NCBI GenBank assembly: GCA_021828285.1
Contig: JAKASG010000002.1
Coordinates: 1 to 64,000, forward strand
From: Acidobacteriota bacterium
Lineage (GTDB): Bacteria; Acidobacteriota; Terriglobia; UBA7540
Direction of reading: 5' to 3'
DNA: 64,000 nucleotides
A model generated the notes under the pieces. The model searched no databases. It worked only from the letters and a program-made list of their open reading frames with translations, and was not told the origin of the DNA. Each line of letters begins with the position of its first letter. Within the stretch, counting starts at the first letter, position 1. The position numbers and the translations under genes were made by a program. This document shows, one piece after another, positions 13,329 through 32,066 of this stretch.

Positions 13329-13358
13329 AGAACTAGGAATCGCATCGGCTGGTGCTTA

Positions 13359-14276: not shown

Positions 14277-15155
14277 TCAGTCCATCGCTGAAGCCGCCGC
14301 TTTCGCCGGCGCGAGCGGAGAAAGGCGCCGGCCCGATTGCAAATAGAGCCAGACCGCTTCGAGCTTCGAAAGGCGCGGCCGGCGATTGAGCGTGTCGTAA
14401 TCGAGAGCCTCAATCTTATTGAGAATGGCCATGCCGCCCCGCCAAGTCGTGCGAAGCTGCCGCCGCAGGCGTGCGTCAGCAAGATCCGTGAGCGGCCGGC
14501 CGCGCTCAAAAAGCTCGCGCGTGCGGCGCACCTCAAAAGCCATCAGATTTCTCCAGCGCTCGTCCGCCCGGCCGGTCACCAGACCCTCTCTTGAATAGCC
14601 GAATCGCGTGAAATCTTCAAGCGGAATATAAATCCTTCCGCGCTTGAAATCCACCGCGACATCCTGCCAGAAGTTCGTCAGTTGAAGCGCCGTGCATATG
14701 CAATCGGACAAGCGGGCATGCTCCGCATCGCGATCTCCGAAAAGCGCCAGCACGAGCCTGCCCACAGGATTTGCCGAGCGCTCGCAGTAAGCCATGAGCG
14801 CCTTAAAATCCGGGAAGGCCGTTCCGCGCGAGTCCATCTCGAAGGCGTCCAGCAGAAAGTCGAAAGGTTTCTGCTTGAGGCCGAATTTTCCGACGGCATC
14901 GGCCAGCGCGACAAAAACAGGATCCTCCGCCTGGCCGCGGAATGATGTGCCAAGCTTTTCCCGCCACTCGTCAAGCTTTTCGAGACGAGCTCCAAAGCGG
15001 GGCTCGTCGGCAAAATCGTCCGCGCTTCGTGCAAAAGCGTAGATTGCCGCAAGGGCGTCACGCCGGTCCTTTGGAACCAAGCGCGAAGCGACGGGAAAAT
15101 TCTCGTAATGCCGCGCCAATCGCCGGCATTCGGCGTAGGCCCTTCGAACATTCAT
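14277..15155 (-). CDS. hpnC: Hydroxysqualene synthase
   Basis: Squalene/phytoene-synthase family, 292 residues; HpnC converts presqualene diphosphate to hydroxysqualene. Visible motifs are the HYENFPVASRLVP segment characteristic of HpnC, ARSADDFADEPR (first aspartate-rich motif) and QLTNFWQDVAVDFKRGRIYIP (second). ATG 15155 is chosen because the longer frame would run into ftsZ and because conserved sequence begins right after it (MNVRRAYAEC); no strong Shine-Dalgarno is visible. It begins 70 bp after the ftsZ stop on the same strand with no terminator seen between them, so it may be co-transcribed with the division cluster. Confidence 0.9.
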   Translation of the reverse strand: MNVRRAYAECRRLARHYENFPVASRLVPKDRRDALAAIYAFARSADDFADEPRFGARLEKLDEWREKLGTSFRGQAEDPVFVALADAVGKFGLKQKPFDFLLDAFEMDSRGTAFPDFKALMAYCERSANPVGRLVLALFGDRDAEHARLSDCICTALQLTNFWQDVAVDFKRGRIYIPLEDFTRFGYSREGLVTGRADERWRNLMAFEVRRTRELFERGRPLTDLADARLRRQLRTTWRGGMAILNKIEALDYDTLNRRPRLSKLEAVWLYLQSGRRLSPLAPAKAAASAMD

Positions 15156-15225
15156 CTGGCTATCCGTAGGCAAAGGCCCTCTGCGGGACGCTCGCCGAGC
15201 GATCCGTGGGTGCGACGCGCGGAAG

Positions 15226-16401
15226 CTACGCGCCAGATTTGGGCCGGCGAAGGAACGCGGGCACGTCAAGATCGTCTTCGGGCACTTCTGCGGGCGGTTT
15301 CTTGACCGGCGCTTCGATAGGCAGTTTTTCTCTTTTCATCATGGCCGAGCGGATGGTCTGCTGCGCGCTGCGGAGCGCAGGCGAAACGCCGGTGAGCGGC
15401 TTGAGCCCCATTTTATCCGACTTGATTCCGGTGGCGATGACAGTGACCTTGACCGCGTCTTTCATTGCTTCATCGTGAACGGCGCCGAAGATGATGTTGG
15501 CGTTATCGGCCGCGGCCTTCTGGACGATGGATGACGCCTCATGCACTTCGTGCAAAGTGAGCTTGCTCGAGCCTGTGATGTTAAGGAGAATGCCCTGCGC
15601 CCCGTTGATCGAGGCGTCTTCGAGAAGCGGGCTGGCCATCGCGCGGTTCGTCGCTTCGATCGCCCGGTTTTCGCCCGACGCCACGGCCGTTCCCATCACC
15701 GCGTAGCCCATGCCTTCCATGATGGTTTTGATGTCGGCGAAGTCGCGGTTGATGATGCCGGTGATCGTGATGATGTCGGAGATCCCCTGCACACCCTGGC
15801 GCAGGATATCATCGGCGATGCGAAAAGCCTCAAAGAAGCTCGTGCCTTTGTCCACGTACTGCATCAAACGCTCGTTGGGAATGCAAATGACCGTATCCAC
15901 GGCCTGGCTGAGCTCGCCCAGGCCCTGCTCGGCCTGCGTCATGCGGCGCTTGCCCTCAAAGGCAAAGGGCTTGGTGACGACAGCAACAGTCAGTGCGCCG
16001 AGCTCGCGCGCGAGGCTCGCGACGATCGGCGCGCCGCCGGTTCCCGTGCCGCCGCCGAGGCCCGTCGTGACGAAGACCATATCCGCGCCTTCGAGCGCCT
16101 CGATGATTTTTTCCGTATCCTCGAGGGCCGCCGCGCGGCCGACTTCCGGATTTGCGCCGGCGCCGAGCCCTTTCGTCAGCTTTGCGCCGAGCTGAATTTT
16201 GAGCGGCGCCTTCGACGCCTGGAGCGCCTGCAGATCCGTGTTCGCCGCCATGAATTCGACGCCTTCGAGCTTGGCAGCGATCATCCGGTTGACGGCGTTT
16301 CCGCCGCCGCCGCCCACGCCAATCACTTTGATTTTGGCGCCCTGGCGAAGATGATCGGAAAAATCCACGCGCAAGGCCCCGTCGTTTCCTTCAATCGTCA
16401 T
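15226..16401 (-). CDS. ftsZ: Cell division protein FtsZ
   Basis: Tubulin-like GTPase that forms the cytokinetic ring. 391 residues; the tubulin signature [10 protein letters not shown], the early [17 protein letters not shown], the T7-loop region [11 protein letters not shown] and the conserved C-terminal peptide LDVPAFLRR for FtsA binding are all intact. Last gene of the dcw cluster, 16 bp after ftsA. Transcription probably comes from the internal promoter upstream of murD as well as from mraZ. Confidence 0.98.
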
Positions 16402-16417: not shown

Positions 16418-17641
16418 TCAGTTCACCGGACCTCTCAGAGCGCCCCAAATCTTACCCACCAAACCGCGATTCCTCGACTCCCGCAACAGGCGCATTTTCT
16501 TGCCGTAAACGGCGAGGCCTGCGACGGTCACGAGTTCGGGATCGTTCAACCAATCCTCCGCGCACACGATGCCGCCGGGCAACGCGGTGCGCACGGGCAA
16601 TTCGAAGTATTGTTCAGCGAGCGCGGCGAAGCCGCCGAGTTTTGCTCCGCCGCCTGCGAGAACCACACCGGCCGCGAGCGGTCCCGAAAGCCGGGCGCGA
16701 TCCAGCTCGGCTTGAATCAGCTCGAGCAACTCGAGCGCACGCGGCTCAATAATCTCATTCAGCCGCACCGCGTTGACGACGCGCGAAGGGCGGTCGCCGA
16801 CGCTCGGCACTTCGAGCGCCGCCGCTTCCGCCTTGAGCCCTTCGGGCTGCCCCCAGCTCCGCTTCATCTTTTCGGCTTCCGGGATTGGCGTTCGCAATCC
16901 CACCGCGATGTCATTCGTGAAGTGCTCGCCGCCGACGGGAATTGCCGCCGTGTGGCGCACAGTCCCCTGCTGATAGACAATGAGACCGGTCGAACCTCCG
17001 CCCAGATCGACGAGGGCGACGCCCTGCTCGCGCTCATCGGCCGTCAGGCAGGATTCCGCCGAAGCGAGCGGCTCAAAGACGATGCCGCTTTCTGGAACTT
17101 CAACGCCCGCACGATTGACGGCCGTCACCACATTTTGCCACGCCAGGGCCGAAGCGGTAATGAGGTGCACGTCCGCTTCGAGGCGCGAGCCGACCATGCC
17201 GATCGGATCGCGAATGCCGTCCTGCGAGTCGAGCAGGAACTCCTGCGGCAGGACGTGGAGCAGCTCGCGGTCCTGCGGAAGCGTAACGCCCTGCGCCGCG
17301 CGAATCGCCTGCCGGATTTCCTCGCGAGTCACGCCGCGGCCGCGGTCGGTGACCGTGGCGGCGCCGCGCGCGCTCACTCCTTTTACATGCCGCCCGCCGA
17401 CGCCCACGTACGCCGCGCTCACCGGAACGCCCGCCGACGCTTCCGCCGCTTCCACCGCTTTCTTGACCGCCATGACGGTGGCATCGAGGTTGACGATGAG
17501 TCCCTTGCGCCAACCCCTCGATTCCGCGACGCCGATGCCGCCCGCTTCAAGCCCCGCACCATCCGAAAGGAAACACACGAGAGCGCAAACCTTGGTGCTC
17601 CCGATGTCAAGCCCGACAATCGGTTCGTCTTTCCTTGCCAT
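16418..17641 (-). CDS. ftsA: Cell division protein FtsA
   Basis: Actin-like ATPase that tethers FtsZ to the membrane. 407 residues with the phosphate-binding loops [13 protein letters not shown] and [21 protein letters not shown] in the adenosine motif, and a C-terminal amphipathic helix [11 protein letters not shown], the membrane-targeting sequence. Lies 30 bp after ftsQ. Confidence 0.97.
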
Positions 17642-17671: not shown

Positions 17672-18592
17672 TCAGTTTTGCGCCGCAGGCTTCGTCGCGC
17701 CCGGCGCCACCGGATTGACGACAACCTGGTTCTTATACCTCAGATCCACCGAATCCACCGGCGCGTTCAGCTTTTCAATCCGGGGAAGCAGAGCAAGCAG
17801 ATTGGTCAGGCGCGCGCCGAATTCCCGCCGGCCGAAATGCACCAGAATGGTGCGTTGTCCCGAAACGATCAATGCTTTGAGGTCGGAAGGGTCTGAAACA
17901 TCCACCTGCGAAACCGTCCAGCCTGATCCCTTCATTGAATTCCGCGTCGCCTGCATAAACGTCAGGAACAATTGAACCCGTTCGAGGCGGTCGGAAGGAG
18001 TCTGGCCGTTCGCAAGGCCCGCGAGAATCGGAAAGTCGAACATCGCTCGGCTCGGCGGATCGAGCAACACGCCGTCGCGATCCACCAGCTCGATGTGCCC
18101 TCCGACCTCGGCGAAAGCCACCGGCGTCCGCTCAACCACAAAAATCGCCAGGCTCGCCGGAAATGTCCGAAGCACAGTGGCCGATTCAACCCAGGGAATG
18201 GATTCGACCTCTGCCCGCACGGCGCCGAGGTGCAAGCGAAAAATGTTGGTTCGCTGCGCGCCGTTAGCGTCCGGCGTGAACGCCAAAGCGTTCATGAACT
18301 CCTCGCGTGAAACGTAGCGATTGCCTTCAATCGTCACTTGCACGCTCGAGCCAAATCCGAAACGCGGCGCGCTCAAAATATAATGTGCCAGCCGATATGC
18401 GCCGTAAGCGAGCGGAATCAGGATCACGGCCACGAGCGCACCTGCAAACGCGGCATGTCGCATCTTCCGCGCCGCGCGGCCTCGGCGCACGGGCACGACT
18501 TTCGGCGCCCGCAAATAGCGCGGCTCGACTTCCGCTATCAAGTCGTCGGTCAGCGGGCGTTCCTGCTCGGAGGGTTCGATGGCCCTGTTCAC
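17672..18592 (-). CDS. ftsQ: Cell division protein FtsQ
   Basis: Bitopic divisome protein that recruits FtsB/FtsL. 306 residues: cytoplasmic basic N-terminus, one membrane helix (about 46-70, AAFAGALVAVILIPLAYGAY), then a POTRA domain (VQVTIEGNRYVSREEF to about 155) and the FtsQ/DivIB beta domain (VERTPVAFAEVGGHIELVDRDG onward). Its ATG overlaps the murC stop by four bases. Confidence 0.95.
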   Translation of the reverse strand: MNRAIEPSEQERPLTDDLIAEVEPRYLRAPKVVPVRRGRAARKMRHAAFAGALVAVILIPLAYGAYRLAHYILSAPRFGFGSSVQVTIEGNRYVSREEFMNALAFTPDANGAQRTNIFRLHLGAVRAEVESIPWVESATVLRTFPASLAIFVVERTPVAFAEVGGHIELVDRDGVLLDPPSRAMFDFPILAGLANGQTPSDRLERVQLFLTFMQATRNSMKGSGWTVSQVDVSDPSDLKALIVSGQRTILVHFGRREFGARLTNLLALLPRIEKLNAPVDSVDLRYKNQVVVNPVAPGATKPAAQN

Positions 18593-19998
18593 TTTTCGAG
18601 CGCTCCCACGCGAGGCGTTCGCTCGCGCAGTCCTTCCAGAATCTCTTCGCCCAGCCTGCCGACGCTTCCGGCCCCGATCGTCAAAAGCAGGTCGCCCGGC
18701 CGCGCGCCGGCAACCGCAGCTTCGACCGCCGACCGCTCCGATGGGACGTACTCGGCGCGGCGGAAGCCCAGCTCACGCATTCGCTCCAGCAGCCGTTCGG
18801 CCGTCACGCCGGGAATGGGCGGCTCACTTGCAGGATAAATATCCAGAACGAAAAGATGGTCGCAGGCTTCAAAGCAGCCCGCGAAATCATCCATCAGCAT
18901 TTTCGTGCGCGTAAAGCGGTGCGGCTGAAAAATCGCCAGAATGCGGCCGGGGCGCCGCAGGCGGGCCGCTTCAAGCGTCGCGCGAATTTCATTCGGATGA
19001 TGGCCATAATCATCCACGACGGTCACGCCGCCCGCCTCACCCTTGACTTGAAAACGGCGGTCCGCACCGCGAAAACTCTCCAGGCCTCGCCTCAATTCGT
19101 CCGCAGTCAGTTCGAGCTCGAGCCCGACCGCCAGCGCGGCAAGAGCGTTCTGGACGTTGTGCCGTCCGGGAATGCGAATCTCAAACCGGCCGAGGGACTT
19201 TCCTCGATCGCTTACTTCGAAGGAAGCCCCCGCGGGACCGAGCTCGACATTTGAAGCCGTCACGTCCGCTGTGCATTCGATTCCATAGGTGATGGCTCGG
19301 CGCCTGAGCGAGGGCGCAATGCTTTCGAAGGCAGTTCGCCAGGGAGGGTCTACGCAAGCCACGATCGCACCGTAAAAGGGGACTTTGTTCAGGAACGCTG
19401 CAAACGCCTGCTCGATTTCTTCGAGGTCGCGGTAACGATCGAGATGCTCCCGATCCATGTTGGTGACGACGGCAATCGTGGGCAGCAGATGGAGGAACGA
19501 CCGGTCGCTTTCATCCGCTTCGACCACCATGAACTCGCTTTTGCCGAGCCGTGCGCTTGAGCCGAAGCTGTCGAGGCGCCCGCCGATCACGGCCGTCGGA
19601 TCGAGTCCCGCTGCGGCCAGAAGGACGGCAATCATCGAAGTCGTGGTCGTCTTGCCGTGAGCGCCGGCCACCGCGATGCTGAACTTCATGCGCATCAACT
19701 CCGCCAGCATCTCCGCACGCGGAATGACGGGAACGCCTCGCCGTTTCGCTTCAAGAATTTCAGGGTTCTGCAAGGAAACGGCGGAAGAAATCACGGCAAC
19801 CTGCGCGTCATTCAAATTCGCCGCCATATGCCCTTCGTGGATTCGCGCGCCGAGCCGCGCCAAGCGTTCGGTGACGGCCGTCAGTTTCGTATCCGATCCG
19901 GAGACTGAAAAGCCCAGGTTCAGCAGAACCTCAGCGATGCCGCTCATTCCGCTGCCGCCGATGCCTACAAAATGGATGCGCCGAATTTTCCCGAGCAT
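18589..19998 (-). CDS. murC: UDP-N-acetylmuramate--L-alanine ligase
   Basis: First amino-acid ligase of peptidoglycan precursor synthesis, adding L-Ala to UDP-MurNAc with ATP. 469 residues: Rossmann-like N-terminus HFVGIGGSGMSGIAEVLL, ATP-binding P-loop GAHGKTTTTSMIA and the central-domain VVEADESDRSF. Separated from murG by 85 bases with no gene in them. No murB or ddl accompanies it, so those functions must be encoded elsewhere. Confidence 0.97.
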   Translation of the reverse strand: MLGKIRRIHFVGIGGSGMSGIAEVLLNLGFSVSGSDTKLTAVTERLARLGARIHEGHMAANLNDAQVAVISSAVSLQNPEILEAKRRGVPVIPRAEMLAELMRMKFSIAVAGAHGKTTTTSMIAVLLAAAGLDPTAVIGGRLDSFGSSARLGKSEFMVVEADESDRSFLHLLPTIAVVTNMDREHLDRYRDLEEIEQAFAAFLNKVPFYGAIVACVDPPWRTAFESIAPSLRRRAITYGIECTADVTASNVELGPAGASFEVSDRGKSLGRFEIRIPGRHNVQNALAALAVGLELELTADELRRGLESFRGADRRFQVKGEAGGVTVVDDYGHHPNEIRATLEAARLRRPGRILAIFQPHRFTRTKMLMDDFAGCFEACDHLFVLDIYPASEPPIPGVTAERLLERMRELGFRRAEYVPSERSAVEAAVAGARPGDLLLTIGAGSVGRLGEEILEGLRERTPRVGALEK

Positions 19999-20083: not shown

Positions 20084-21232
20084 TCACCGTACAAGCTCTT
20101 CCACGCAATCCGCAATTTCGCCCGCTGCACCGGGACGTGTGAGCGATTTGGCGCGGTCTTCCATTTGCCGCAATCGGTTCGCATTCCCGAGCAAATCGAG
20201 AATTTCACCGGCCAGACGCTCCGGCGTCAGATCCGCCTGCGGCAGCACGCGCGCCGCGCCCGCACGCTCGAACGCCAGCGCGTTGGCCATTTGATGCTGG
20301 TCGGCAGCTCCGGGAAACGGAACAAGCAGCGCCGCACGGCCGGCCGCGGCAATTTCCGCCACGCTCATCGCTCCGGCCCGGCCGACCACCAGATCGGCGC
20401 GCGCAAAAGCCGCGGGAACGTCCTCAATGAAAGCATGAACTTCCGCGGCCACACCCGCGCTCCCGTAAGCGGCACGCACCGCATTATAGTCTGCTTCGCC
20501 CGTTTGGTGAATGAAGCTGAGCGGCTGCGACGAGAGCAGCGGCAGAGATTTTGCAACCGCCTCATTGATCGCGTGTGCACCCTGGCTTCCGCCGATGACC
20601 ACCACGGTGAAGGGAGCTCGATGCGGCTTAGCCGGCACTTCAAAAAACTCCTTGCGGACGGGATGGCCCGTCCATCGCGCTTTCGCTCCGTAAAACCGCG
20701 CCGCCTCTTCAAAGCCGACGGCTGCAATGCGGACAAAAGGCCGAAGCACGCGGTTGGTGAATCCCGGGAGAGCATTCGGCTCGATCAGCAAGGCCGGAAT
20801 TTTCTTGAGCGACGCTATCAGCATTACCGGTCCGGCGGCGTATCCGCCCATCCCCACGACCACGTCCGGCCGAACCTCCTTCAAAACCGCAGCCACTCTC
20901 ATCCCGCTCCGAGGGAGCAATAACAGGTTGCGAAGCAGCCTGGCTCCGCGAATTCCTTTGAGCCCTGCCGCGGGCGCCGTGCGCAGCGGAAATTCCGTGA
21001 TGAGCCGCGCTTCGAGTGCTCGGCCCGTGCCTAAAAAAATGATTTCATTGGCGATCACCGGCCGAGCGGTATCCCTCGCGCGCTCGCGCAACAGCCGTGC
21101 AACCGCCAGCGCCGGAATGATGTGACCGCCGGTTCCTCCCGCAGCGACCAGCACGCGAATCCGGCGCTTCGCACCCTCCTCCATCCGCGAGCCTCGCTCC
21201 GCCATTCCCTGACCCACCGCCGGCGCCGTCAT
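20084..21232 (-). CDS. murG: Undecaprenyldiphospho-muramoylpentapeptide beta-N-acetylglucosaminyltransferase
   Basis: GT28 glycosyltransferase that makes lipid II from lipid I at the inner face of the membrane. 382 residues from ATG 21232; the N-terminal VAAGGTGGHIIPALAVA and the acceptor/donor-site segments GMGGYAAGPVM, GGSQGAHAINEAV and the GRAGAMSVAEIAAAGRAALLVPFP region are intact. Two further in-frame ATGs (21205 and 21184) are possible starts; none has a strong Shine-Dalgarno. Follows ftsW by 34 bp. Confidence 0.96.
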   Translation of the reverse strand: MTAPAVGQGMAERGSRMEEGAKRRIRVLVAAGGTGGHIIPALAVARLLRERARDTARPVIANEIIFLGTGRALEARLITEFPLRTAPAAGLKGIRGARLLRNLLLLPRSGMRVAAVLKEVRPDVVVGMGGYAAGPVMLIASLKKIPALLIEPNALPGFTNRVLRPFVRIAAVGFEEAARFYGAKARWTGHPVRKEFFEVPAKPHRAPFTVVVIGGSQGAHAINEAVAKSLPLLSSQPLSFIHQTGEADYNAVRAAYGSAGVAAEVHAFIEDVPAAFARADLVVGRAGAMSVAEIAAAGRAALLVPFPGAADQHQMANALAFERAGAARVLPQADLTPERLAGEILDLLGNANRLRQMEDRAKSLTRPGAAGEIADCVEELVR

Positions 21233-21266: not shown

Positions 21267-22358
21267 TCAGCTCGTGTTCTGCGAGATGTTCAACAAAATG
21301 CCCATCTCGATCAGGCTGAAGACCAGCGAGGAACCGCCGTAACTGATGAACGGCAGCGGAATGCCTTTGGTGGGAAGCAAACCCACGACGACGCTGACGT
21401 TCACAAGCGCCTGAATGACAATCATCGCCGTCAGCCCGAGGGCCAGAAGCCGGCCGAAATCGTCTTTCGCCCGAAAAGCGGCGCGCAGCCCGCGCCACAA
21501 AATCACGCCGAACAGACCCAGCACCACGAGTCCGCCAATCAATCCCAGCTCTTCGCCGATCACACCGAAAATAAAATCCGTCTGCGGCTCAGGCAGGAAG
21601 AAAAGCTTTTCTTTGCCTTCCATTAATCCGACGCCCAGGATGCCGCCGCTGCCCACCGCAATATACGATTGGATGATCTGGAATCCCGCCCCAAGCGAGT
21701 GAGCATAAGGGTGAAGAAAGGCCAGGATCCGCCGGTAGCGATAGCCCACGTGGAAGACGAGCCAGTAAATCGCCGGGATCGACGCGACCACGGCATAAGC
21801 CATATAGGCGACGCGCAAACCCGCTGCAAAAAGCATCGCCCCAACGATCACCGCGAGCGCGAGTGCAGTGCCGAAATCCGGTTCGCGCAGCACCAGCAGA
21901 ACGTCGAGGCCCGCGATCAGCCCCACGGGCAGGAGCGTTTCGCTCCAGTCGTTCACCCGGTTCTTGCGCAGGCTGAGAAAGTAAGCGAGAAAAATGATGA
22001 GCACGATTTTAGACAGTTCGGAGGGTTGGAACGTGGCTGGGCCGAGATGAAGCCAGCGGTGGGTATCGTGGTTCAGGCTCGAGAAGAGCACGAGCACGAG
22101 AAGAATCAATTGCAGGCCGAGCGCCGGAAAAATCAGCATCGGATTTTTCAGCCTTCGGTAGTCTACGTTCATCACGCCGACCATCAGTAAAAGCCCGAGC
22201 GTCGCCCACGCAACCTGGCGAACGAGGAAGTAGGTGCTCGAATGATATTGCTGGGCAGCGATGACCGCCGAAGCGCTGTAAACCATCACGATGCCGAAAA
22301 GAACAAGACAAACGACTGCGCCGAACAGCACTCGATCCGCTTCAAGCCGCCGCGCCAT
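21267..22358 (-). CDS. ftsW: Lipid II polymerase FtsW (SEDS family)
   Basis: Polytopic SEDS glycosyltransferase that polymerises septal peptidoglycan together with FtsI. 363 residues and about ten membrane helices; conserved segments are VGGILGVGLMEGKEKLFFLPE, TDFIFGVIGEELGLIGG and the C-terminal TKGIPLPFISYGGSS. Starts five bases after the murD stop, so the two are probably translationally coupled. Confidence 0.96.
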   Translation of the reverse strand: MARRLEADRVLFGAVVCLVLFGIVMVYSASAVIAAQQYHSSTYFLVRQVAWATLGLLLMVGVMNVDYRRLKNPMLIFPALGLQLILLVLVLFSSLNHDTHRWLHLGPATFQPSELSKIVLIIFLAYFLSLRKNRVNDWSETLLPVGLIAGLDVLLVLREPDFGTALALAVIVGAMLFAAGLRVAYMAYAVVASIPAIYWLVFHVGYRYRRILAFLHPYAHSLGAGFQIIQSYIAVGSGGILGVGLMEGKEKLFFLPEPQTDFIFGVIGEELGLIGGLVVLGLFGVILWRGLRAAFRAKDDFGRLLALGLTAMIVIQALVNVSVVVGLLPTKGIPLPFISYGGSSLVFSLIEMGILLNISQNTS

Positions 22359-22363
22359 CGCTG

Positions 22364-24067
22364 CTATCGCTCCTCCCGGGAAGAAGCCCGCGCACGGCGT
22401 TTGGCGCTCCGCGTCGCAGCGGATCGGGAGACATCCTCGCGCGGGCGCACTTCATAATTCATCGGCTCATCCGCGGGCTCTTCCGCAGGCCCGAAGTCCT
22501 CGAATACCGGCAAAGGCGCGGGTGAAGGCGCCTCGGGCAAATCTGTGCGGGAAAATTCTTCCGCGCTCACTTCAAAGACATATTCAAGCTCGCGAGCCTC
22601 GGAAGCTTCCTTCTCCGTCGCCGCCGGAGCTTCCGGAGGCATTTCAACGGCGGAGGGCGAAGGCGGAATCTTCGCCGATTCCGAGACGAGGGACAAAGGC
22701 GGCGACGCTTCACGGACAAGGTGCAAGACCTGCTGCTTGAATGCACGGCCGCGCTCTTCAAAGTCGTGGAATTGGTCGTAGCTCGAGCAGGCGGGCGCAA
22801 GCAGAACCGTATCGCCGGGCGCGGCACGGTGGAAAGCTTCGCGCACTGCAACGTCCAGCGTGCCGGCCGGGATGATTTCGGCGTGCGGGCCAAGCTCGCG
22901 AGCGATGATTTCCGCCGCCGATCCGATCGTCAAAATTTCCCGCACTCGCCCGCCGAGCAACGGAACGAGCGGGGCATAGGGCGCGCCCTTATGCTTTCCC
23001 CCGAGAATCAGATGGACGCCCCGCTCAAAACTCGATAGCGCCTTCGCAGCGGCATCCACACTGGTCGCTTTCGAATCGTTATAAAATTTCACGCCGCGCA
23101 CCTCGGCGACGAATTCCAGGCGGTGCTCGACGCCCTGGAAATGCCGCGCCGCGCGGCGCACGGAGGCGAAATCACCGCCGACCGCAGAAGCCGCGGCCAC
23201 TGCCGCAAGAACATTTTCGAGATTAAAATCGCCGCGCAATCGAACGTCGCTGACGTCCGCCACCACGCGCTCCAGTCCGTCAAGCCGCCAGAGAATCTCT
23301 CGGTTCGAGATGAACGCCCCCTCGGGCAGCTCGCGGCTCCGGCTGAAGAAAATTTTGCGCGACCGAACCGCGTCGGAAAGAGCCGCAACCCGGGGATCAT
23401 CGGCATTCAAAATTGCGATGTCGTCTTCGGTTTGATTACGGAAGATTTGCGCCTTGGCCTGGATATAAGCGTCAAACGTCGGATGGCGGTCGAGATGGTT
23501 CGGAGAGAGGTTCAAAAGCGCCGCGACGCGGGGGTGGAAATCACGAATCGCTTCCAATTGAAAGCTGCTGAGCTCGGCGACGACGATGGAATCCTCCGTC
23601 AAGCGCTCGACAACGGAAATGAGCGGCACGCCCACGTTCCCGGCCATTACAACGTCGAAACCCGATTCTTCGAGCATTTTTGCCGTCAGGACCGTCGTCG
23701 TTGTTTTACCGTTCGATCCGGTGATGCCGATCAAGCGGCCGCGGAGATACGCCCCGGCGAGTTCGATCTCAGGGATCACCTCCATTCCCTTTCGCCGCGC
23801 CTCGGCGAGCGGCGCAAGATCCCACGGCACGCCGGGGCTCACGACAATCAGATCCTGGGCGAGGAACGTTTCCGCGCGGTGGACTCCTGTTTCGATCCCC
23901 GCTTTCAGGCCGAGCAGCTCTCGGACCTCCGCCTGGAGCACGGCCGGCGAGCGCGAGTCCGTGGCTATAACGAGCGCACCGTGCGCGGCAAGGAAACGCG
24001 CCGCCGCAAGGCCGCTGCGGGCCATGCCGACCACCAGAACGCGCCGTCCTGCGAGCGGTTTCACCAC
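22364..24067 (-). CDS. murD: UDP-N-acetylmuramoyl-L-alanine--D-glutamate ligase with a long acidic C-terminal tail
   Basis: Adds D-glutamate to UDP-MurNAc-L-Ala. Residues 1-454 are a complete Mur ligase (VVGMARSGLAAARFL; P-loop GITGSNGKTTTT; SPNHLDRHPTFDAYI; KFYNDSKATSVDAA; LLAPACSSYDQFHDFEERG). Typical MurD proteins stop here, at about 450 residues. This one continues for about 113 residues (genomic 22367-22705) rich in Pro, Glu and Ala, with hydrophobic spots LEYVFEVSAEEF and PLPVFEDFGP and a basic end (SAKRRARASSREER). The frame is uninterrupted. Starts are two adjacent GTG codons (24067, 24064) overlapping the stop of the upstream ribbon-helix-helix gene. Confidence 0.95.
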   Translation of the reverse strand: MVKPLAGRRVLVVGMARSGLAAARFLAAHGALVIATDSRSPAVLQAEVRELLGLKAGIETGVHRAETFLAQDLIVVSPGVPWDLAPLAEARRKGMEVIPEIELAGAYLRGRLIGITGSNGKTTTTVLTAKMLEESGFDVVMAGNVGVPLISVVERLTEDSIVVAELSSFQLEAIRDFHPRVAALLNLSPNHLDRHPTFDAYIQAKAQIFRNQTEDDIAILNADDPRVAALSDAVRSRKIFFSRSRELPEGAFISNREILWRLDGLERVVADVSDVRLRGDFNLENVLAAVAAASAVGGDFASVRRAARHFQGVEHRLEFVAEVRGVKFYNDSKATSVDAAAKALSSFERGVHLILGGKHKGAPYAPLVPLLGGRVREILTIGSAAEIIARELGPHAEIIPAGTLDVAVREAFHRAAPGDTVLLAPACSSYDQFHDFEERGRAFKQQVLHLVREASPPLSLVSESAKIPPSPSAVEMPPEAPAATEKEASEARELEYVFEVSAEEFSRTDLPEAPSPAPLPVFEDFGPAEEPADEPMNYEVRPREDVSRSAATRSAKRRARASSREER

Positions 24068-24249
24068 AGTCCGCGCCTCTCCCGCCGCGCGAATCCGTTT
24101 CTGCGCAAATGGACGGAAAGGATTTCGGAAACCACTTCAGAAAGCGAGCGGCGCGCGCGGCGCGCCAGGCGCCGCGCCGCGCGCAGCGTGGCGCCATCGA
24201 GCGTCAGGCTGACCCGCGTCGGATTGCGGAACGATTTGGGACGCCCCAT
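24061..24249 (-). CDS. Small ribbon-helix-helix DNA-binding protein inside the dcw cluster
   Basis: 62 residues. A basic N-terminus (MGRPKSFRNP) leads to a beta strand TRVSLTLD, helix A (GATLRAARRLARRARR) and helix B (SLSEVVSEILSVHLRR), the CopG/Arc-type ribbon-helix-helix layout, ending in an Arg-rich tail. Such proteins bind palindromic operators as dimers and often repress their own promoter. AGGA lies seven bases before the ATG. Immediately upstream is a near-consensus promoter whose -10 box lies inside a perfect palindrome. The 3' end overlaps the murD start. I infer an autoregulator of the murD-ftsW-murG-murC-ftsQ-ftsA-ftsZ half-operon. An orphan antitoxin is the alternative, but no toxin gene is present. 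Confidence 0.75.
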   Translation of the reverse strand: MGRPKSFRNPTRVSLTLDGATLRAARRLARRARRSLSEVVSEILSVHLRRNGFARRERRGLW

Positions 24250-24259
24250 CGGCGATTCC

Positions 24260-24276
24260 TGCGCATTTTATGCGCA
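24260..24276. promoter_or_regulatory. Perfect palindrome, candidate operator of the ribbon-helix-helix protein
   Basis: TGCGCAT (24260-24266), spacer TTT, ATGCGCA (24270-24276): seven-base arms with no mismatch. It covers the -10 hexamer of the promoter next to it and reaches the expected transcription start, a position where a bound repressor would block RNA polymerase. Association with the adjacent regulator is inferred. Confidence 0.65.
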
Positions 24277-24293
24277 CTTATATCGTTTGTCAA
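24265..24293 (-). promoter_or_regulatory. Internal dcw promoter driving the RHH gene and murD to ftsZ
   Basis: On the minus strand TTGACA (24288-24293, perfect consensus), a 17-base spacer and TAAAAT (24265-24270, five of six). It sits entirely in the 51-bp gap between the mraY stop and the RHH start. The predicted transcription start is near 24258, only about ten bases before the start codon. Confidence 0.75.
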
Positions 24294-24300
24294 GCCAGAC

Positions 24301-25431
24301 TCAGCGCAATTTCAGCGTGGTGAGCGCGAAGAGCGCGAACACCAGCGCCGCGATCCAAAACCGGGCGATAATCTTTGATTCCTTCCACCCGAGCAATTCG
24401 AAATGGTGGTGAAGCGGCGCCATCTTGAAGATGCGTTTCCGGCGCAGCTTGAAGGAAGTCACCTGCAGAATCACGGAAAGCGCCTCAATGACGAAAATGC
24501 CGCCGATAAAGGGCAAAAGGAGCTCCTGCTTGATGATGACGGCGATGGCGGCGATGGCGCCGCCGAGCGCGAGCGACCCGACGTCGCCCATGAAAATCTC
24601 TGCCGGATAAGCGTTATACCAGAGGAATCCCAGACTCGAACCCACCATCGCGCCGCAAATGACGGTGATTTCGGCGGCGTCGGGCAAATGCTCGAGCTCG
24701 AGATAGCGCGAGAGCACCGCATTGCCCGCGATGTAAGTCAGGACGGTGAGCGCCGAAGCGGCGATGATGATGCATCCGATAGCCAGGCCGTCGAGCCCGT
24801 CGGTGAGATTGACGGCATTCGATGAGCCCACGACGACAAGAAGAACGAAGATCAGGAAAGGCGCGAAGGCCAAGGGGAACGTCCAACTGGTACGCTCGAG
24901 CGACGCCAGGATAAAGGTGGGCTGAATTTGCTTGAAAAATGGAAAACTGAGCGTCGTCGAATAGATTCCGCGCGCGGTCATATACACCAGAATCATTCCA
25001 AAGACGAAGGCGACGAGTGACTGGAGGACGAGTTTGTTCCGGGCGGTCAGGCCCAGGTTATGCCGCCGGCGAACTTTCTGGTAATCATCCCAAAATCCGA
25101 TGGCGCCGAAGGCGGTCATCACCGCGAGCACCAGCCAGACGAAAGGATTGCGCAAATCGGCCCAAAGAAGCGTTGGAATGATGACGCACACATTGATCAG
25201 GACTCCGCCCATGGTGGGCGTGCCCGCTTTCGCCTGATGAGCTTTCGGGCCTTCTTCGCGAATGAATTGGCCGATTTGGAATTGCTTGAGTTTGCCGATG
25301 ACCCATGGCCCGAGCACCATGGATAGAAACAGCGCCGTGAGGCTCGCGTAGGCCGTGCGAAACGTCACGTACCGGAAGAGATTCAGGATGTGGAGGCGAG
25401 TATGCCCCGCGAGATATACGAAATAGAACAT
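24301..25431 (-). CDS. mraY: Phospho-N-acetylmuramoyl-pentapeptide-transferase
   Basis: Integral-membrane enzyme transferring phospho-MurNAc-pentapeptide to undecaprenyl phosphate to make lipid I. 376 residues and about ten membrane helices. Catalytic and signature segments are present: [32 protein letters not shown], the [12 protein letters not shown] loop and the HHHFELLGW segment near the C-terminus. 24 bp downstream of murF. Confidence 0.97.
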
Positions 25432-25455
25432 GGGAACACCGCAACGCGCCGGGCT

Positions 25456-26871
25456 CTACTCCGGCTTGCGCATTTCCGCAGGCGCACCGGCAAGCGCCTG
25501 CGTCACTCCTTCCAAATGTACACCTCTCGAACCCTTGACGAGCACGACGTCGCCGGGCTCGAGAATTTTCCGGCAAAATTCCGCCGCTTCCGCCGCGCCG
25601 GCAAAAAAGAGAGCGCGTTCCCGCGGAAGTCCCGCTTCGACGGCCCCTTCAACAAAAAACCGCGCGTCACCCCGAACGGCAATCAGCCAATCGGCGTTTA
25701 TTGCAGCCATCTTCCGCCCGACGGCGCGGTGAAGCTCAGGCGAAGTCTTGCCGAGCTCAAGCATTTCTCCTGCAACGACGATGAGCCGGCTCGCTCCCGG
25801 CCATTCAGCGAGCGTTTCCAGCATTCGCTCCATGGCGCGCGGATTCGAGTTGTAAGAATCGTTGAGGAGAGAAATGCCGCCGGGCAAAACGATCACTTCG
25901 TTCCGCTGGGCCATTGCACCAAAGCTCAAAAGCGCTTCCCTCGCCTCGTCCGCGTGCACACCGAACACGCCGGCGACGGCAAGCGCGGCAAGCGCATTCT
26001 CGACATTGTGCCGGCCGGGAAGGCGAAGATGGAATTCACCCGTCATAAGATTTCCTCGAACGCGGAACGAACTTCCGCCTCCGTCAAGCGTTTCAATCGC
26101 TTCGGCGCGGACGTCGGCCTTCGGACTCATCCCGAATGTCGCGACTCGCCCTCCGAACCCTTCCCTGAATTTTCGAACGCGCGAGTCGTCTTCATTCAAG
26201 ACGGCCGTGGGATCTCCGCGCTCACGCGAAAGATTCTGGATCAGCTCTCGTTTTGCCGCCGCAATGCCCTCGACGGAATCGAAAAAAGCGAGATGGACGG
26301 GTGCGACGTTGGTGACGACGCCGACGTCGGGTTCTGAAATGCGCGCGAGGCGCGCGATTTCTCCCGGCGCGGACATGGCGAGTTCGACGACGGCCAGATC
26401 GTGCACGGGCTCGAGTGCGAGCAAAGCCTGGGGCAGCCCGAAGAGATTGTTCAGATTTCCGGGCGACTTCAAGACGGAAAAACGTGTCGAGAGCAGCGAG
26501 GCGGTCATTTCCTTGGTCGTTGTTTTGCCTGCGCTGCCTGTGACGCCGACCAATCGCCCGCCCCATCGCCGTCTCACGGAGCAGGCGAGATTTTCAAGCG
26601 CTTCGGCGGTGTCGCGGACCGCGATCAGATCCGGCTGGAGATCCCCGCTCGCCCAGCGCAAAAAGTCGTCGCACACGACCGCGCCGGACGCGCCGCTCGC
26701 CATCGCCGCGCGCACAAAATCGTGGCCGTCGAATTTCGGTCCTTTGATCGCGAAAAAAAGCTGGCCCGGCTTGATGGTCCGCGAGTCGATCGAATAGCCG
26801 GTGGCCATGCGTCCCGCGCCCTTCCAGCGGGAGCTCAGAATCTTCGCGACCTCCTGGAGATCGAGCTTCAT
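25456..26871 (-). CDS. murF: UDP-N-acetylmuramoyl-tripeptide--D-alanyl-D-alanine ligase
   Basis: Adds the D-Ala-D-Ala dipeptide to the UDP-MurNAc-tripeptide. 471 residues: N-terminal YSIDSRTIKPGQLFFAI substrate-binding domain, P-loop GVTGSAGKTTTKEM, and the C-terminal segment NDSYNSNPRAMERML. The frame is open a further 312 bases upstream into murE, but the family N-terminus begins at ATG 26871 (MKLDLQEV), so that start is used. No strong Shine-Dalgarno is seen. Confidence 0.96.
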   Translation of the reverse strand: MKLDLQEVAKILSSRWKGAGRMATGYSIDSRTIKPGQLFFAIKGPKFDGHDFVRAAMASGASGAVVCDDFLRWASGDLQPDLIAVRDTAEALENLACSVRRRWGGRLVGVTGSAGKTTTKEMTASLLSTRFSVLKSPGNLNNLFGLPQALLALEPVHDLAVVELAMSAPGEIARLARISEPDVGVVTNVAPVHLAFFDSVEGIAAAKRELIQNLSRERGDPTAVLNEDDSRVRKFREGFGGRVATFGMSPKADVRAEAIETLDGGGSSFRVRGNLMTGEFHLRLPGRHNVENALAALAVAGVFGVHADEAREALLSFGAMAQRNEVIVLPGGISLLNDSYNSNPRAMERMLETLAEWPGASRLIVVAGEMLELGKTSPELHRAVGRKMAAINADWLIAVRGDARFFVEGAVEAGLPRERALFFAGAAEAAEFCRKILEPGDVVLVKGSRGVHLEGVTQALAGAPAEMRKPE

Positions 26872-26947
26872 CGAGTTTCGGGTGCGGGCCTCCGTTCCCG
26901 CAAATGCTATGATGCCGCGTGCCGGGCGGCGTGCGCCAATGAGGGCA

Positions 26948-28435
26948 TCATGCCGGGCGCGCCCTTGTATAGCCCATTCCGGCGAGCGCACGGCGGGCTG
27001 CTTCCCTGTCATCAAATGCGATGGTGCGGTCTTTGAGCACCTGATACGTTTCATGGCCTTTTCCGGCGAGCACCACGGTGTCGCCTTCGCGCGCTTCTTC
27101 GAGAGCCATCTGCACGGCGCGCTCGCGATCCACTTCGGCAACATAGGGCTTGCCGGTGCGCTGCAAGCCGACGAGCGCGTCATTCATAATTAGAATCGGA
27201 TCTTCGCTGCGTGGATTGTCCGAAGTAAGGACGACAAAATCGGCGAGCGTGCCGGCCGCCTCGCCCATGAGCGGGCGTTTGGTGCGGTCGCGTTCGCCGC
27301 CACAGCCGAAGAGAACGATCAGCCGATGGCGGGTCATCTCGCGCGCGGTGCGCAGGACGTTGCGCAGGGCGTCATCGGTATGCGCGTAATCCACCACCAC
27401 GAGAAAGGGCTGGCCCGCTTCGATGCGCTCGAAGCGTCCCGGCACAGCACGAAGCTTCGCGACGCCTTCGCGGATGACATCGTCCGCGATGCCCAGGCCA
27501 TGCGCCGCCGCGACGGCCGCGAGGATATTCATGACGTTGACACGCCCGACGAGAGGCGAGTGAATCTCGAGCGTGCCTGAGGGCGTCGTCACGCGCGCTT
27601 CGATGCCGTTGAGGTCCTGCCGCCAATGGCTTGCGCGAACATCCGCGCCCGCTTCGAAGCCGTAACTCAGCGTGCGAGCGGCGCGCGATTCCGCCATCAG
27701 CCGCACGCCCCGCGGGTCGTCGCGATTGATGACGGCAAGCGCCGGCGGAGGAGCGCCCAGCCCCTCGAAGAGACGGCGCTTCGCGGCAAAGTAACTTTCA
27801 AAGTCTTTGTGAAAATCGAGGTGATCGCGCGTCAAATTGGTAAAGATGGCGGCGGCAAAGTGAAATCCCCAGATTCGTTCCTGGGCAAGCGCATGGGAGG
27901 ACGCCTCCATGACCGCCGCCTTCGAGCCTCTTCGAACCAGCTCATCGAAACGGGCGAGGAGGTCGAGCGACTCGGGCGTGGTGTTGACCGCCGGTTCGAC
28001 TCGCGTTCCAACCCGGTATTCGATGGTCCCGAAAAGCCCTGGATCCCAACCCGCGGCGCTCAGAACGCTTTCGAGCAAATACGCCGTCGTCGTTTTTCCA
28101 TTGGTTCCCGTAATCCCGAAGACGTGAAGCTTTGTGTCCGGAAAACAAAAAAACTTGCGGGCGGCTTCGGCGAGCGCCCGGCGGATTTTCGGGACCCGGA
28201 TCCAGCGAGAGGAATCTTCGGCCGGGGGTTCACGTTCGCTGACCACGCCGGCCGCGCCGCGTTCGAAAGCCCCGCGGATGAAGCGGTGACCATCCGCCTT
28301 TTCGCCGCTGATGGCGAAAAATAACCCTCCCGGCTCAACGCGCCGCGAGTCATAGGCTAACGCGGTGATTTCAAGGCTAGGATCGAGTGTGGTTTTGGCG
28401 CCATCAACTGCCGCCAGGAGTTCCCCGGCTTTCAT
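26948..28435 (-). CDS. murE: UDP-N-acetylmuramoyl-tripeptide synthetase, meso-DAP type
   Basis: Adds the third amino acid to the peptidoglycan stem peptide. 495 residues: SRRVEPGGLFFAI, P-loop GITGTNGKTTTAYLLE, VMEASSHAL and the specificity motif DNPRSEDP. DNPR in that position marks meso-diaminopimelate-adding enzymes, as opposed to lysine-adding ones. Start chosen at ATG 28435 (MKAGELLAAV) where homology begins; an upstream ATG at 28474 would add 13 residues and cannot be excluded. Lies 141 bp downstream of ftsI. Confidence 0.95.
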   Translation of the reverse strand: MKAGELLAAVDGAKTTLDPSLEITALAYDSRRVEPGGLFFAISGEKADGHRFIRGAFERGAAGVVSEREPPAEDSSRWIRVPKIRRALAEAARKFFCFPDTKLHVFGITGTNGKTTTAYLLESVLSAAGWDPGLFGTIEYRVGTRVEPAVNTTPESLDLLARFDELVRRGSKAAVMEASSHALAQERIWGFHFAAAIFTNLTRDHLDFHKDFESYFAAKRRLFEGLGAPPPALAVINRDDPRGVRLMAESRAARTLSYGFEAGADVRASHWRQDLNGIEARVTTPSGTLEIHSPLVGRVNVMNILAAVAAAHGLGIADDVIREGVAKLRAVPGRFERIEAGQPFLVVVDYAHTDDALRNVLRTAREMTRHRLIVLFGCGGERDRTKRPLMGEAAGTLADFVVLTSDNPRSEDPILIMNDALVGLQRTGKPYVAEVDRERAVQMALEEAREGDTVVLAGKGHETYQVLKDRTIAFDDREAARRALAGMGYTRARPA

Positions 28436-28576
28436 TTCCCGCCCGCGGAGTTCGCTCGCGGCGCCGGTTCGCATCCGCCGCCCGCACCGGCCGTTTGGCT
28501 CGGGCGGCGGAACTGCGGAAACTACAGAAGCGCCGCCGCAGTATAGAAACCTCCAACAAAAGCATTTTCGCGCATC

Positions 28577-30643
28577 TTAGCGCGCCAGTCGAACCCACAC
28601 GCTCGTATGGAGAGGCACTTGAGCGCCTGCCGGAGGAGTCTGCTCGACGGCAACGCCGAGGCCGGAAAGTTCTGCTTCAAATCCGAGCGCCTGGCACTCG
28701 CTCGCCACCTGGCGAGCGGACTGGCCGGCAAAGTCCGGCACGGTCACGCGCGGACCGTCATCGAGGATGACGGTTCCGACTGAACTGAGGCCCGGCGACC
28801 ATACGCCGGCGTTCGCGGACACGGGACGAGTGGCAGCTTCGGCAGATTCAAAGTTATTGGGAGGGTTCCCTGACGTGGCGAGCCGTTGCTGGCGACGCGC
28901 CGCGGGGTGGGTGAGGGATGCGACTTGCAGAGGCTGGGAAGGTTGGTCTTGCGGGACACTCAAATAATTCAGCGTCTGCTCTGCGATGAACTTGAATGCC
29001 GGAGCCGCCACTTGGTCTCCGTAAATCGCTCCAACCGGCGTATCAATAGCCACCAGAATGGTTACTGCCGGGTTTTCGACCGGAGCGAAACCGATGAACG
29101 ATGCTATGTAATGATGATGCGAATAACGACCGTGCGAATCAATCTTCTGGGCTGTGCCTGTTTTTCCCGCGGCGGAGTAGCCGTCGAGTTGCGCGGGACG
29201 GCCGGTGCCCCCCGTCACGACGCCTTCAAGCATCTGTTTCATTTCCTCGTCGGTCTGTGGACTGAGGATGCGCCGCCCGGGAGAAACAGGGACTGGCTTC
29301 AAATCGCTGCCATCGCCCGTTGCGCTGACAATGCGCGGCTTCATCATGACTCCGCCGTTTGCCACCGCCGAGTAGGCATCAACCAACTGGAGCGGAGTGA
29401 TGCCCACGCCCTGGCCCGTTGAAATATCGGCAATCGAAATGCCGGACCACCGGCTCGGAGGCTCGAGCAAACCCCTTTCTTCACTCGCCAGGCCGATATC
29501 CGTTCTTCGATCGAAACCGTAGCGCAAAATCCAGTCGTAAAGGCGCTGTTCGCCGAGGCGCAGGCCGATCTTGATGGTCCCCACTTCGCTCGAATTCATC
29601 AGAACCTGCGCAACCGTCAGGTCGCCGAACGGGTGCCAGTCATGGGTAACGATGCCTGCGACGACGATCTGCCCCTCCTGGCAATTAATCACCTGATCGG
29701 GAGAGGCAAGGCCTTCCTGAAGCGCGGCCGAAATGGTGACCAGCTTGAAGGTCGAGCCCGGCTCGTAGATCCAGGCCACGGCGCGGTTTTCCGTTGCGCC
29801 GGCTGGAGCCTGCTCGAAGTCGTTCGGATTGAAGGTCGGCTGGCTCGCCATTGCAAGAATGTCTCCGGTGTGAGGATTCTGCACGATGACCACGCCACCC
29901 GCCGCATGATACTTCTTGACGATTTTGGCCAGCTCTCTTTCGGCGATGAATTGAATGCCTCGGTCGAGCGTCAGCACGAGGTTTTGCCCGGGTTGGCCCG
30001 GCTGCTCGACGGATTTGAAGGAATGGTGGCGCGCATCGGTTTCGAGCAGCACGCGTCCCGATTTGCCCTTCATGAGGCTGTTGAAAGAGTATTCGAGCCC
30101 CGCCAGCCCGTTATTGTCCATGCCCACGTATCCGAGGACCTGCGCCGCAAGGTCTCCGTTTGGGTAGAATCGCTTCATTTCTTTCTCAAAGTAGATTCCC
30201 TTCAGGTTGAGCGCCTTGACGCGCGCCGCTTGCTCATGGCTGACTTTCCGTTCAATCCAGCAAAACGAACGGTAGGCCTTGAATTGGCCGAGCAAGTCTT
30301 GCGGGTCGAGCTTCAAAATCGGGGCGAGCAGATGCACAACCATCCCGGGATCGGGAATCTGGTTCGGTACGGCATAAATGGATTCGGCGGGCAAGCTCAT
30401 GGCAAGCGGATGCAGGTTGCGGTCGTAAATGATGCCGCGCTGAGGGGCGATTTCCACGACTTGTTGCTGTTGCCTTTCTCCGCGCGCGAGCCATCGCACG
30501 TATTGAATCACTTGAAGGTCATAGAGGCGAAGCGCGACGACGAGCATCCACAGAAATAAAAACGCCGCGAGGACCAGCGTGCGCCGGACCACAGGCGACT
30601 CGAGAGCTGCGGACCCCTCGGTTTGCGGTTTTGACGAGGCCAT
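28577..30643 (-). CDS. ftsI: Peptidoglycan D,D-transpeptidase FtsI (PBP3) with a C-terminal PASTA domain
   Basis: Septal class B penicillin-binding protein, 688 residues. Short cytoplasmic N-terminus, one membrane helix (about 21-43), dimerisation domain, transpeptidase domain with S297-T-F-K300 (active serine), S351-S-E353 and K494-T-G496, then a Pro/Gln-rich linker and one PASTA domain (about 631-688). The second motif, normally S-x-N, has glutamate in the third position. A C-terminal PASTA repeat is common in Gram-positive division PBPs and less usual in Gram-negative FtsI. Starts just after ftsL (gap of three bases). Confidence 0.95.
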   Translation of the reverse strand: MASSKPQTEGSAALESPVVRRTLVLAAFLFLWMLVVALRLYDLQVIQYVRWLARGERQQQQVVEIAPQRGIIYDRNLHPLAMSLPAESIYAVPNQIPDPGMVVHLLAPILKLDPQDLLGQFKAYRSFCWIERKVSHEQAARVKALNLKGIYFEKEMKRFYPNGDLAAQVLGYVGMDNNGLAGLEYSFNSLMKGKSGRVLLETDARHHSFKSVEQPGQPGQNLVLTLDRGIQFIAERELAKIVKKYHAAGGVVIVQNPHTGDILAMASQPTFNPNDFEQAPAGATENRAVAWIYEPGSTFKLVTISAALQEGLASPDQVINCQEGQIVVAGIVTHDWHPFGDLTVAQVLMNSSEVGTIKIGLRLGEQRLYDWILRYGFDRRTDIGLASEERGLLEPPSRWSGISIADISTGQGVGITPLQLVDAYSAVANGGVMMKPRIVSATGDGSDLKPVPVSPGRRILSPQTDEEMKQMLEGVVTGGTGRPAQLDGYSAAGKTGTAQKIDSHGRYSHHHYIASFIGFAPVENPAVTILVAIDTPVGAIYGDQVAAPAFKFIAEQTLNYLSVPQDQPSQPLQVASLTHPAARRQQRLATSGNPPNNFESAEAATRPVSANAGVWSPGLSSVGTVILDDGPRVTVPDFAGQSARQVASECQALGFEAELSGLGVAVEQTPPAGAQVPLHTSVWVRLAR

Positions 30644-30646
30644 GGA

Positions 30647-31126
30647 TTACTCACCCGTCATCGCCCTCGCATTCGGCAAGTTGCGAGCGTATTCGATGCT
30701 CTGCTCCGTTCCCGCCGCTGATTTGCCCACGGGCACGATTTGCCCGGGCTGGGGAGGAATCAACCCCAGTTCGGTTTGCGCAAGCCGGTCAATGCGCTGC
30801 GGATTCGCCAGCGAAGCGCGCTCCATGCGCAGCCGGTTGTCCCAATTCTGCATGGCGGCCTGCTGGGACCGAAGCTGCTGAATCTCGTAGCCGTAGCGAA
30901 CGCACTCGAAATGCTCCCAGCAAACAAGCAGGAAGAAAAGAAACACAACCCCGCCGAGCGCGAGAAAGCGATAGCACTCGCGCCGCTTCGCCCAATCCAC
31001 GTCGCGGCGCAGGCGGGAATTGTCAATGGGTTTGCGGAAGTAAATCTCCGGGCTTCGCGCGCGGCCGCCGGCCAGACTTTGCCGGGTGCGAGGCCTTTCC
31101 TTCGGGATCAGGACTGCGGTCGCCAT
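30647..31126 (-). CDS. ftsL: Cell division protein FtsL-like
   Basis: 159 residues: a basic cytoplasmic N-terminus (about 1-60), one strongly hydrophobic helix (about 63-82, FLALGGVVFLFFLLVCW), then a coiled coil rich in Glu/Gln/Leu (YEIQQLRSQQAAMQNWDN) and the RIDRLAQTELGLIPP segment typical of FtsL/DivIC proteins. Sequence similarity within FtsL is low, so position between rsmH and ftsI is the main support. Start taken at ATG 31126 (MATAVLIPKERPR); the open frame extends 40 codons further upstream into rsmH, which seems non-coding. Confidence 0.85.
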   Translation of the reverse strand: MATAVLIPKERPRTRQSLAGGRARSPEIYFRKPIDNSRLRRDVDWAKRRECYRFLALGGVVFLFFLLVCWEHFECVRYGYEIQQLRSQQAAMQNWDNRLRMERASLANPQRIDRLAQTELGLIPPQPGQIVPVGKSAAGTEQSIEYARNLPNARAMTGE

Positions 31127-31187
31127 CGGTTTGCAGCTTTCAGCGCGCCAGGCGGACGGATTCCGCCTTTCGCGCAGGCTCTTTCCG

Positions 31188-32066
31188 TCAGGAATTTTTC
31201 TCCGCTGCGCGCAGCTTCGCGCTGCGCGAACGGGAATTGATTTCAACTTCTTCAGGCGAGGGCCGCACCACCTTGCGCGTCAGGATTCGCGCCCGGCCTT
31301 CGCGCTGCCAACTCTGGAAAGTCTGTTTCACCCTTCGGTCTTCGAGCGAGTGATAACTCAGAATCACGATCCGTCCGCCACGGGCGAGGACGCTTGGAAT
31401 CGCTGCGAGAAAACGCTCCAGGCTTTCCAGTTCGCGGTTGACCGCGATGCGGAGCGCCTGGAAAGTTCGCGTGGCCGGATGAATTTGGTGGAGGCCCGCC
31501 CGGGAGGGGATCGCTCGCGTCACCACCTGCGCCAATTCGGTGGTTTTACGAAACGGACGGGCCTTCACAATCGCTCGCGCTATGCGGCGCGAGTGGCGCT
31601 CTTCCCCAAACTTGAAAATCAAATCCGCAAGCTCGCGCTCTGGCGTCTGATTGACGATTTCGCGAGCGCTCAGCTCGGCTTCAGGATCCATTCGCATGTC
31701 GAGCGGGCCTTCGCGCATAAAGCTGAATCCGCGGCTCGCGTCGTCCAGTTGCATCGCGCTCACGCCGAGATCGGCCAAAACGCCGTCGGCCGCCGGGAGG
31801 CCGCTCGCGCGGTGCAAAGCTTCGATTTCCGCGAAGTTTCCGGCCATCAGAATCGCCTGCTCCCTGAATCGAGCGAGCCTTTCGCGCGCCATGGCGAGCG
31901 CTGCCGGGTCTTGGTCAATCCCCAGAAGCTTCCCTCTTCCTTCGCCGAGCCGCGTGAGGATCGCCTCCGCATGTCCGCCGGATCCAAGCGTTGCGTCAAT
32001 GTAAACTCCGTCTCTGCGCACATTCAAAAATTCCAGCGTCTCCCGAAGCAACACGGAAACGTGCAT
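31188..32066 (-). CDS. rsmH: 16S rRNA (cytosine1402-N4)-methyltransferase
   Basis: SAM-dependent methyltransferase (formerly MraW) that methylates C1402 of 16S rRNA. 292 residues: N-terminal HVSVLLRETLEFL, SAM-binding YIDATLGSGGHAEAIL, GVLADLGVSAMQLDD and C-terminal ILSYHSLEDRRVKQTF. Its ATG is immediately after the mraZ stop with no gap, so translation is coupled. Confidence 0.97.
   Translation of the reverse strand: MHVSVLLRETLEFLNVRRDGVYIDATLGSGGHAEAILTRLGEGRGKLLGIDQDPAALAMARERLARFREQAILMAGNFAEIEALHRASGLPAADGVLADLGVSAMQLDDASRGFSFMREGPLDMRMDPEAELSAREIVNQTPERELADLIFKFGEERHSRRIARAIVKARPFRKTTELAQVVTRAIPSRAGLHQIHPATRTFQALRIAVNRELESLERFLAAIPSVLARGGRIVILSYHSLEDRRVKQTFQSWQREGRARILTRKVVRPSPEEVEINSRSRSAKLRAAEKNS

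Follow-up and report, generated by a model that had tools for sequence, protein, structure and literature searches.

Few gene clusters are as strongly conserved in bacteria as dcw, whose known dedicated regulator, itself encoded in the cluster, is MraZ. MraZ represses its own gene and the cluster, its gene being the first behind its own operator (PMC8475190). Among regulators of the ribbon-helix-helix (RHH) type, CopG of plasmid pMV158 is the autorepressor of the copG-repB operon, in which it is cotranscribed with the gene behind it (PMC5717011), and haloarchaea have CdrS, a short RHH protein of 55-61 aa whose gene immediately precedes ftsZ2 and is cotranscribed with it (PMC7439475; PMC8406309). 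A further RHH factor, aCcr1 of Saccharolobus islandicus, is reported in a review to inhibit the division gene cdvA when overexpressed (PMC7617429).

The locus considered here lies in a 64,000-nt stretch of acidobacterial DNA (the window) and resembles each of these systems in part. Like CopG, the protein encoded there is short and probably of RHH type, with a weak sequence match over the RHH core, but its gene is chromosomal and lies inside the dcw cluster rather than serving plasmid copy control, and the protein has an extra N-terminal arm, M(A/G)RPKSFRNP, which is conserved among its orthologs. Like cdrS, it is a short RHH gene directly before a gene of the cell-wall and division cluster; that gene is murD, however, not ftsZ2, the likeness is drawn at the level of the presumed RHH fold, and whereas archaeal CdrS has 18 ChIP sites the protein here has a single recognisable one. 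The gene context also differs from that of aCcr1, which belongs to an archaeal, ESCRT-type division system. As with MraZ, we propose an autorepressor of dcw genes that is encoded first behind its own operator, but this one sits in mid-cluster and not at the cluster head, and both the protein family and the operator are different. The original prediction had stated that no RHH regulator of division genes was known to be described in this position. That holds for the bacterial dcw literature, as no RHH gene in a bacterial dcw cluster was found in open-access publications, but archaea have CdrS and aCcr1; thus the kind of regulator is known, and it is the bacterial dcw setting that is new to open-access literature searches.

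Results

An RHH gene and its promoter between mraY and murD

The 62-aa frame that had been noticed between mraY and murD is present, its start lying 51 nt beyond the mraY stop, and is preceded by the following elements.

24301-25431, minus strand: mraY (TIGR00445); stop codon followed after 7 nt by the -35 hexamer
24288-24293, minus strand: -35 hexamer TTGACA; TTGAC in 22/22 orthologous loci
24265-24270, minus strand: -10 hexamer TAAAAT; invariant in 22/22 loci
24260-24276, strandless: 17-bp palindrome TGCGCAT-AAA-ATGCGCA, a perfect inverted repeat and the proposed RHH operator
24256-24280, strandless: extended 25-bp symmetric element, consensus TTnnTGCGYATAAAATRCGCAnnAA, window copy TAAGTGCGCATAAAATGCGCAGGAA
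24061-24249, minus strand: RHH (CopG-like) gene, 62 aa, an ATG-started open reading frame with orthologs

The promoter, TTGACA-17-TAAAAT on the minus strand, agrees with the consensus in 11 of 12 letters, so the description of it as near-consensus was correct, as was that of a perfect palindrome holding the -10 box: the whole hexamer is contained in it, and the palindrome is kept in all 22 orthologous loci. Within the 11 kb from 22000 to 33000 only two sites reach 11/12, this one and one upstream of mraZ. Perfect palindromes of 7+3+7 letters occur nine times in the 64-kb window, and such a palindrome alone is not rare; it is the position over the -10 box, together with conservation in 22/22 gene-bearing genomes, that goes beyond chance. 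In these genomes, which span 14 genera, YGCGYATAAAATRCGCR is accompanied by a TTGAC -35 box, and 20 of the 22 loci have a 17-nt spacer, the other two (L016 and L020) one of 18 nt. Column information is about 2 bits through the palindrome, high over TTGAC and near zero outside, which indicates that the rest of the gap between mraY and the RHH gene has drifted. Symmetric T/A pairs outside the -10 box (positions -4/20 and -3/19) point to an operator for a dimer. The right-hand AA of the 25-bp element could instead be the transcription start, with whose expected position it coincides; the left-hand TT alone is not open to this second reading. A transcript from this promoter would have a leader of about 8-9 nt (24250-24258, minus strand) and be near-leaderless, and a Shine-Dalgarno sequence is missing upstream of the RHH gene in most species (window and L002-L022).

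Since its arms could pair and it lies about 10 nt before the ATG in most genomes, the inverted repeat might be thought to work at the RNA level, as a hairpin close to the RHH start codon of read-through transcripts. We reject this as very improbable. One arm carries a C/A mismatch in 8/22 genomes, TAAAAT and TTGAC are conserved and needless for a hairpin, and the spacing of repeat and ATG is variable (6 to 120 nt); six genomes have a leader of 64-120 nt against the usual 10 or so, with the palindrome core intact in all six. An Rfam search of the region gave no match.

The assignment of the protein to the CopG-like RHH class, weak from the window protein alone, is supported by its orthologs and by matches to CopG. 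The window protein scores 12.7 bits against Pfam RHH_1 (cut-off 20.5 bits; orthologs up to 19.3 bits) and 20.5 bits against DUF6364 (PF19891; gathering cut-off 27.3 bits), a model that four of five orthologs tested exceed (27.7-30.4 bits) and that matches all 22 at E values up to 1. No NCBIfam model, that of MraZ included, matched the window protein. The family profile matches CopG (2CPG/1B01) weakly (E 0.02), and profile-profile alignment with hhalign gives E 3e-5 and a probability of 73% over 38 columns that correspond to the RHH core. An AlphaFold monomer of low confidence (pLDDT 66) has helices at residues 19-32 and 36-50 and, weak as it is, shows no N-terminal strand; its Foldseek matches are mostly RHH proteins (CdbA, MazE-mt10, CopG, Arc, AmrZ), all at E of 1 or above. 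The residues invariant among the orthologs include R3, P4, K5, S6, R12, L15, T16 and L17, which lie in an N-terminal basic arm and the presumed DNA-reading strand. The C-terminal part is very basic.

Distribution of the gene and its site

The family sample comprised 39 genomes of the source organism's family (Acidobacteria subdivision 13, soil bacteria), the named relatives being subdivision 13/Terriglobia MAGs. RHH orthologs, 60-76% identical in the alignment, were found in 22 of them, always at the same locus: murD follows directly in 22/22, and mraY precedes in all but L008, whose contig ends first (in L011 the mraY match covers only the first 203 residues). NG86 dN/dS values of 0.02-0.26, for the pairs in which they were estimable, and an excess of third-position differences show that the protein is under purifying selection. 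Profile searches that scored the 16 best candidates per genome, and may therefore miss distant versions, found no ortholog outside the family, either among other genomes of the class (about 360; E 1e-8) or in a phylum sample (E 1e-6); in outgroups from the class the mraY-murD gaps are 0-256 nt long and tblastn did not find the gene in them. The expectation that gene and palindrome would be conserved in other Acidobacteriota was thus borne out within the family (22/39) but not beyond it. Co-variation of the protein with the palindrome arms, which had also been proposed as a check, was not seen, protein and site both being too conserved within the family: S14N proteins (L004 and L022) carry the usual palindrome, and a G/A change in one arm is mostly without a partner change in the other.

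Such vertical inheritance at one locus under purifying selection counts against the gene being an orphan antitoxin or a mobile-element relic of no local importance, a reading that draws on weak similarity to CcdA, FitA and antitoxin RHH proteins. No toxin gene was found adjacent, tblastn against plasmids and phages returned no relatives of the protein, and we reject this explanation as hardly credible.

When TTGAC plus the palindrome was searched for with up to two mismatches allowed, 20 of the 22 gene-bearing genomes gave a single match each, in every case at the RHH locus, and controls gave none; the two unmatched genomes, G028 and G035, both have an 18-nt spacer. The source genome has no second palindrome site at up to two mismatches, and the 25-mer with up to three mismatches revealed no recurrent second target in the family genomes. 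A single site per genome makes it most likely that the RHH regulator is dedicated to its own promoter.

In 15 family genomes without the RHH gene mraY and murD are still neighbours, separated by 29-294 nt, and the 25-bp element is absent in all 15 (G023 and G034, in which mraY was not found, stand outside this count). The association of gene and site has a Fisher p of about 1e-10, with kinship between genomes ignored. A tree of MraY plus MurD, several deep branches of which are weakly supported, implies about six Dollo losses on the assumption that the family ancestor had the gene. Fossils of the gene were found in two species, G036 and G037, that are close relatives of the gene-bearing G038: in the former the promoter is still recognisable but has decayed (TAATCT; CGCGCAT...TGCGTG), and the frame lacks 48 nt where helix A is encoded, and the latter retains frame remnants, the promoter being gone. 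The gaps of the gene-less species contain no clear promoter, the best site being one of 9/12 in G010 that is equalled by 5% of shuffles. An inverted repeat rich in GC, CGGCGGTC...GACCGCCG, is shared by the gaps of two gene-less species (L109 and L110) and may represent a small repeat element.

Coupling to murD and probable read-through from mraZ

Downstream of the RHH gene the cluster continues as follows.

24061-24067, minus strand: overlap of the RHH stop and the murD start, likely translational coupling; 1-7 nt in 22/22
24076-24083, minus strand: Shine-Dalgarno-like GGGAGAGG of murD within the RHH coding sequence, from the count of Shine-Dalgarno bases
22364-24067, minus strand: murD (TIGR01087, 424 bits)
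21267-22358, minus strand: ftsW (TIGR02614)
20084-21232, minus strand: murG (TIGR01133)
18589-19998, minus strand: murC (TIGR01082)
17672-18592, minus strand: ftsQ-like, weak FtsQ matches under the curated cut-off
16418-17641, minus strand: ftsA (TIGR01174)
15226-16401, minus strand: ftsZ (TIGR00065)
32067-32513: mraZ, a separate gene at the head of the dcw cluster

The overlap of the RHH frame with murD, already noticed in the window, amounts there to 4 or 7 nt (GTG at 24064 or 24067), and in every gene-bearing genome the murD start precedes the end of the RHH stop codon by 1-7 nt. At least four Shine-Dalgarno bases precede murD, within the RHH gene, in 16/22 genomes versus 2/22 for the RHH gene itself. 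Overlap and motif together suggest that the RHH transcript is laid out to make MurD. The genes from murD to ftsZ are on the same strand as the RHH gene and nearly gapless, and from this layout and the conserved coupling the RHH promoter would be expected to feed murD and the genes behind it. The MurD model matches residues 9-447 of the 567-aa protein, which leaves about 120 residues as a C-terminal extension. Directly behind ftsZ (11952-15269, minus strand) there are three frames, by eye probably HpnC/D/E: two resemble squalene/phytoene synthases and one an amine oxidase.

All 18 high-quality family genomes have mraZ, with or without the RHH gene, so RHH does not replace MraZ. Upstream of mraZ in the window is a promoter, TTGACA-17-TATAGT (32564-32628, minus strand), followed by GTGG/AAGTGG/AAAGTAG repeats spaced by about 10 bp, which are conserved across the family and resemble the AAAGTG[T/G] MraZ boxes of Mollicutes. 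With only 7 nt from the mraY stop to the -35 box, read-through from the mraZ promoter should also cross the RHH gene, and since gene-less species keep mraY-murD without a clear replacement promoter, read-through alone can sustain murD. On this comparison the internal promoter is supplementary to read-through and not essential. It had been proposed that murD and the genes behind it are set independently of mraZ; an internal promoter does exist, but as read-through should cross it too, it would only add to the supply.

Repeated joint loss without a clear replacement promoter for murD also means that this promoter may account for little of the transcription of murD to ftsZ, and this bears on the main rival to our reading, a private loop that hardly affects FtsZ. 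The RHH protein would then meaningfully regulate only itself, from a private promoter that maintains its level for a different task (at the nucleoid, with a partner protein or at weak sites elsewhere), with murD to ftsZ transcribed mainly by read-through from the mraZ operon. The state of the gene-less relatives fits this, as do the very basic C-terminal part and the precedent of other small RHH proteins that act on the nucleoid (CdbA; PMC7156744). However, the overlap of murD start and RHH stop is kept in 22/22, the gene is at the mraY-murD position in every genome in which it was found, and there is no second strong site; we consider this explanation unlikely, if the most serious of the rivals.

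Discussion

Our preferred reading, to which we assign a probability of about three in four, is that the RHH protein is a single-target autorepressor of CopG type that controls the RHH-murD...ftsZ transcript in a negative-feedback loop within the dcw cluster. RHH dimers of CopG/Arc type would bind the palindrome over the -10 box of their own promoter and exclude RNA polymerase from it, and the RHH-murD-ftsW-murG-murC-ftsQ-ftsA-ftsZ transcript would thereby be kept at a set level, as a homeostatic loop that adds to read-through from the mraZ side. An operator on the -10 box of a promoter is the classic position for a repressor, and with the RHH gene first behind the promoter the arrangement has the logic of the CopG autorepressor. 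Two marks of that type are found in 22/22 genomes, namely a symmetric putative operator overlapping the promoter of the protein's own gene and a repressor gene that is first in a predicted operon with murD, as judged from the overlap of stop and start. The self-regulation put forward in the original prediction is strongly supported, in that gene and palindrome persist or disappear as a pair and each genome has the site once only; binding by the RHH protein, and repression rather than activation, we infer from these patterns, and a real contribution of the promoter to the levels of MurD...FtsZ on top of read-through is deduced in the same way.

The protein, whose binding is putative, might instead activate the promoter; some RHH proteins do activate, CdrS at ftsZ1 among them (PMC8406309). 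However, the promoter already agrees with the consensus in 11/12 letters and its -10 box is covered by the site, which is where a repressor would sit, and we regard an activator as improbable.

Autorepression might also serve a further end, which we put forward tentatively, as possible but not probable: that the RHH protein acts as a compensator, evening out the supply of the cluster's second half. Read-through past mraY would also make the RHH protein, which would shut the internal promoter; were read-through to fall, the RHH protein would fall with it and the promoter would open, holding MurD...FtsZ steady. If this is true, two autorepressor families, MraZ and RHH, share one dcw cluster, and the RHH protein is the first bacterial dcw-dedicated regulator of its type that can be found in the open-access literature.

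The parallel with archaeal CdrS suggests that bacteria and archaea alike have enlisted RHH proteins for division control. With one 25-bp element per genome, the proposed autorepression is directly testable. A putative second autorepressor in mid-cluster, kept in most genera of the family and repeatedly lost together with its operator, constitutes a natural experiment on the balance between the supply of wall-precursor genes and that of division genes.
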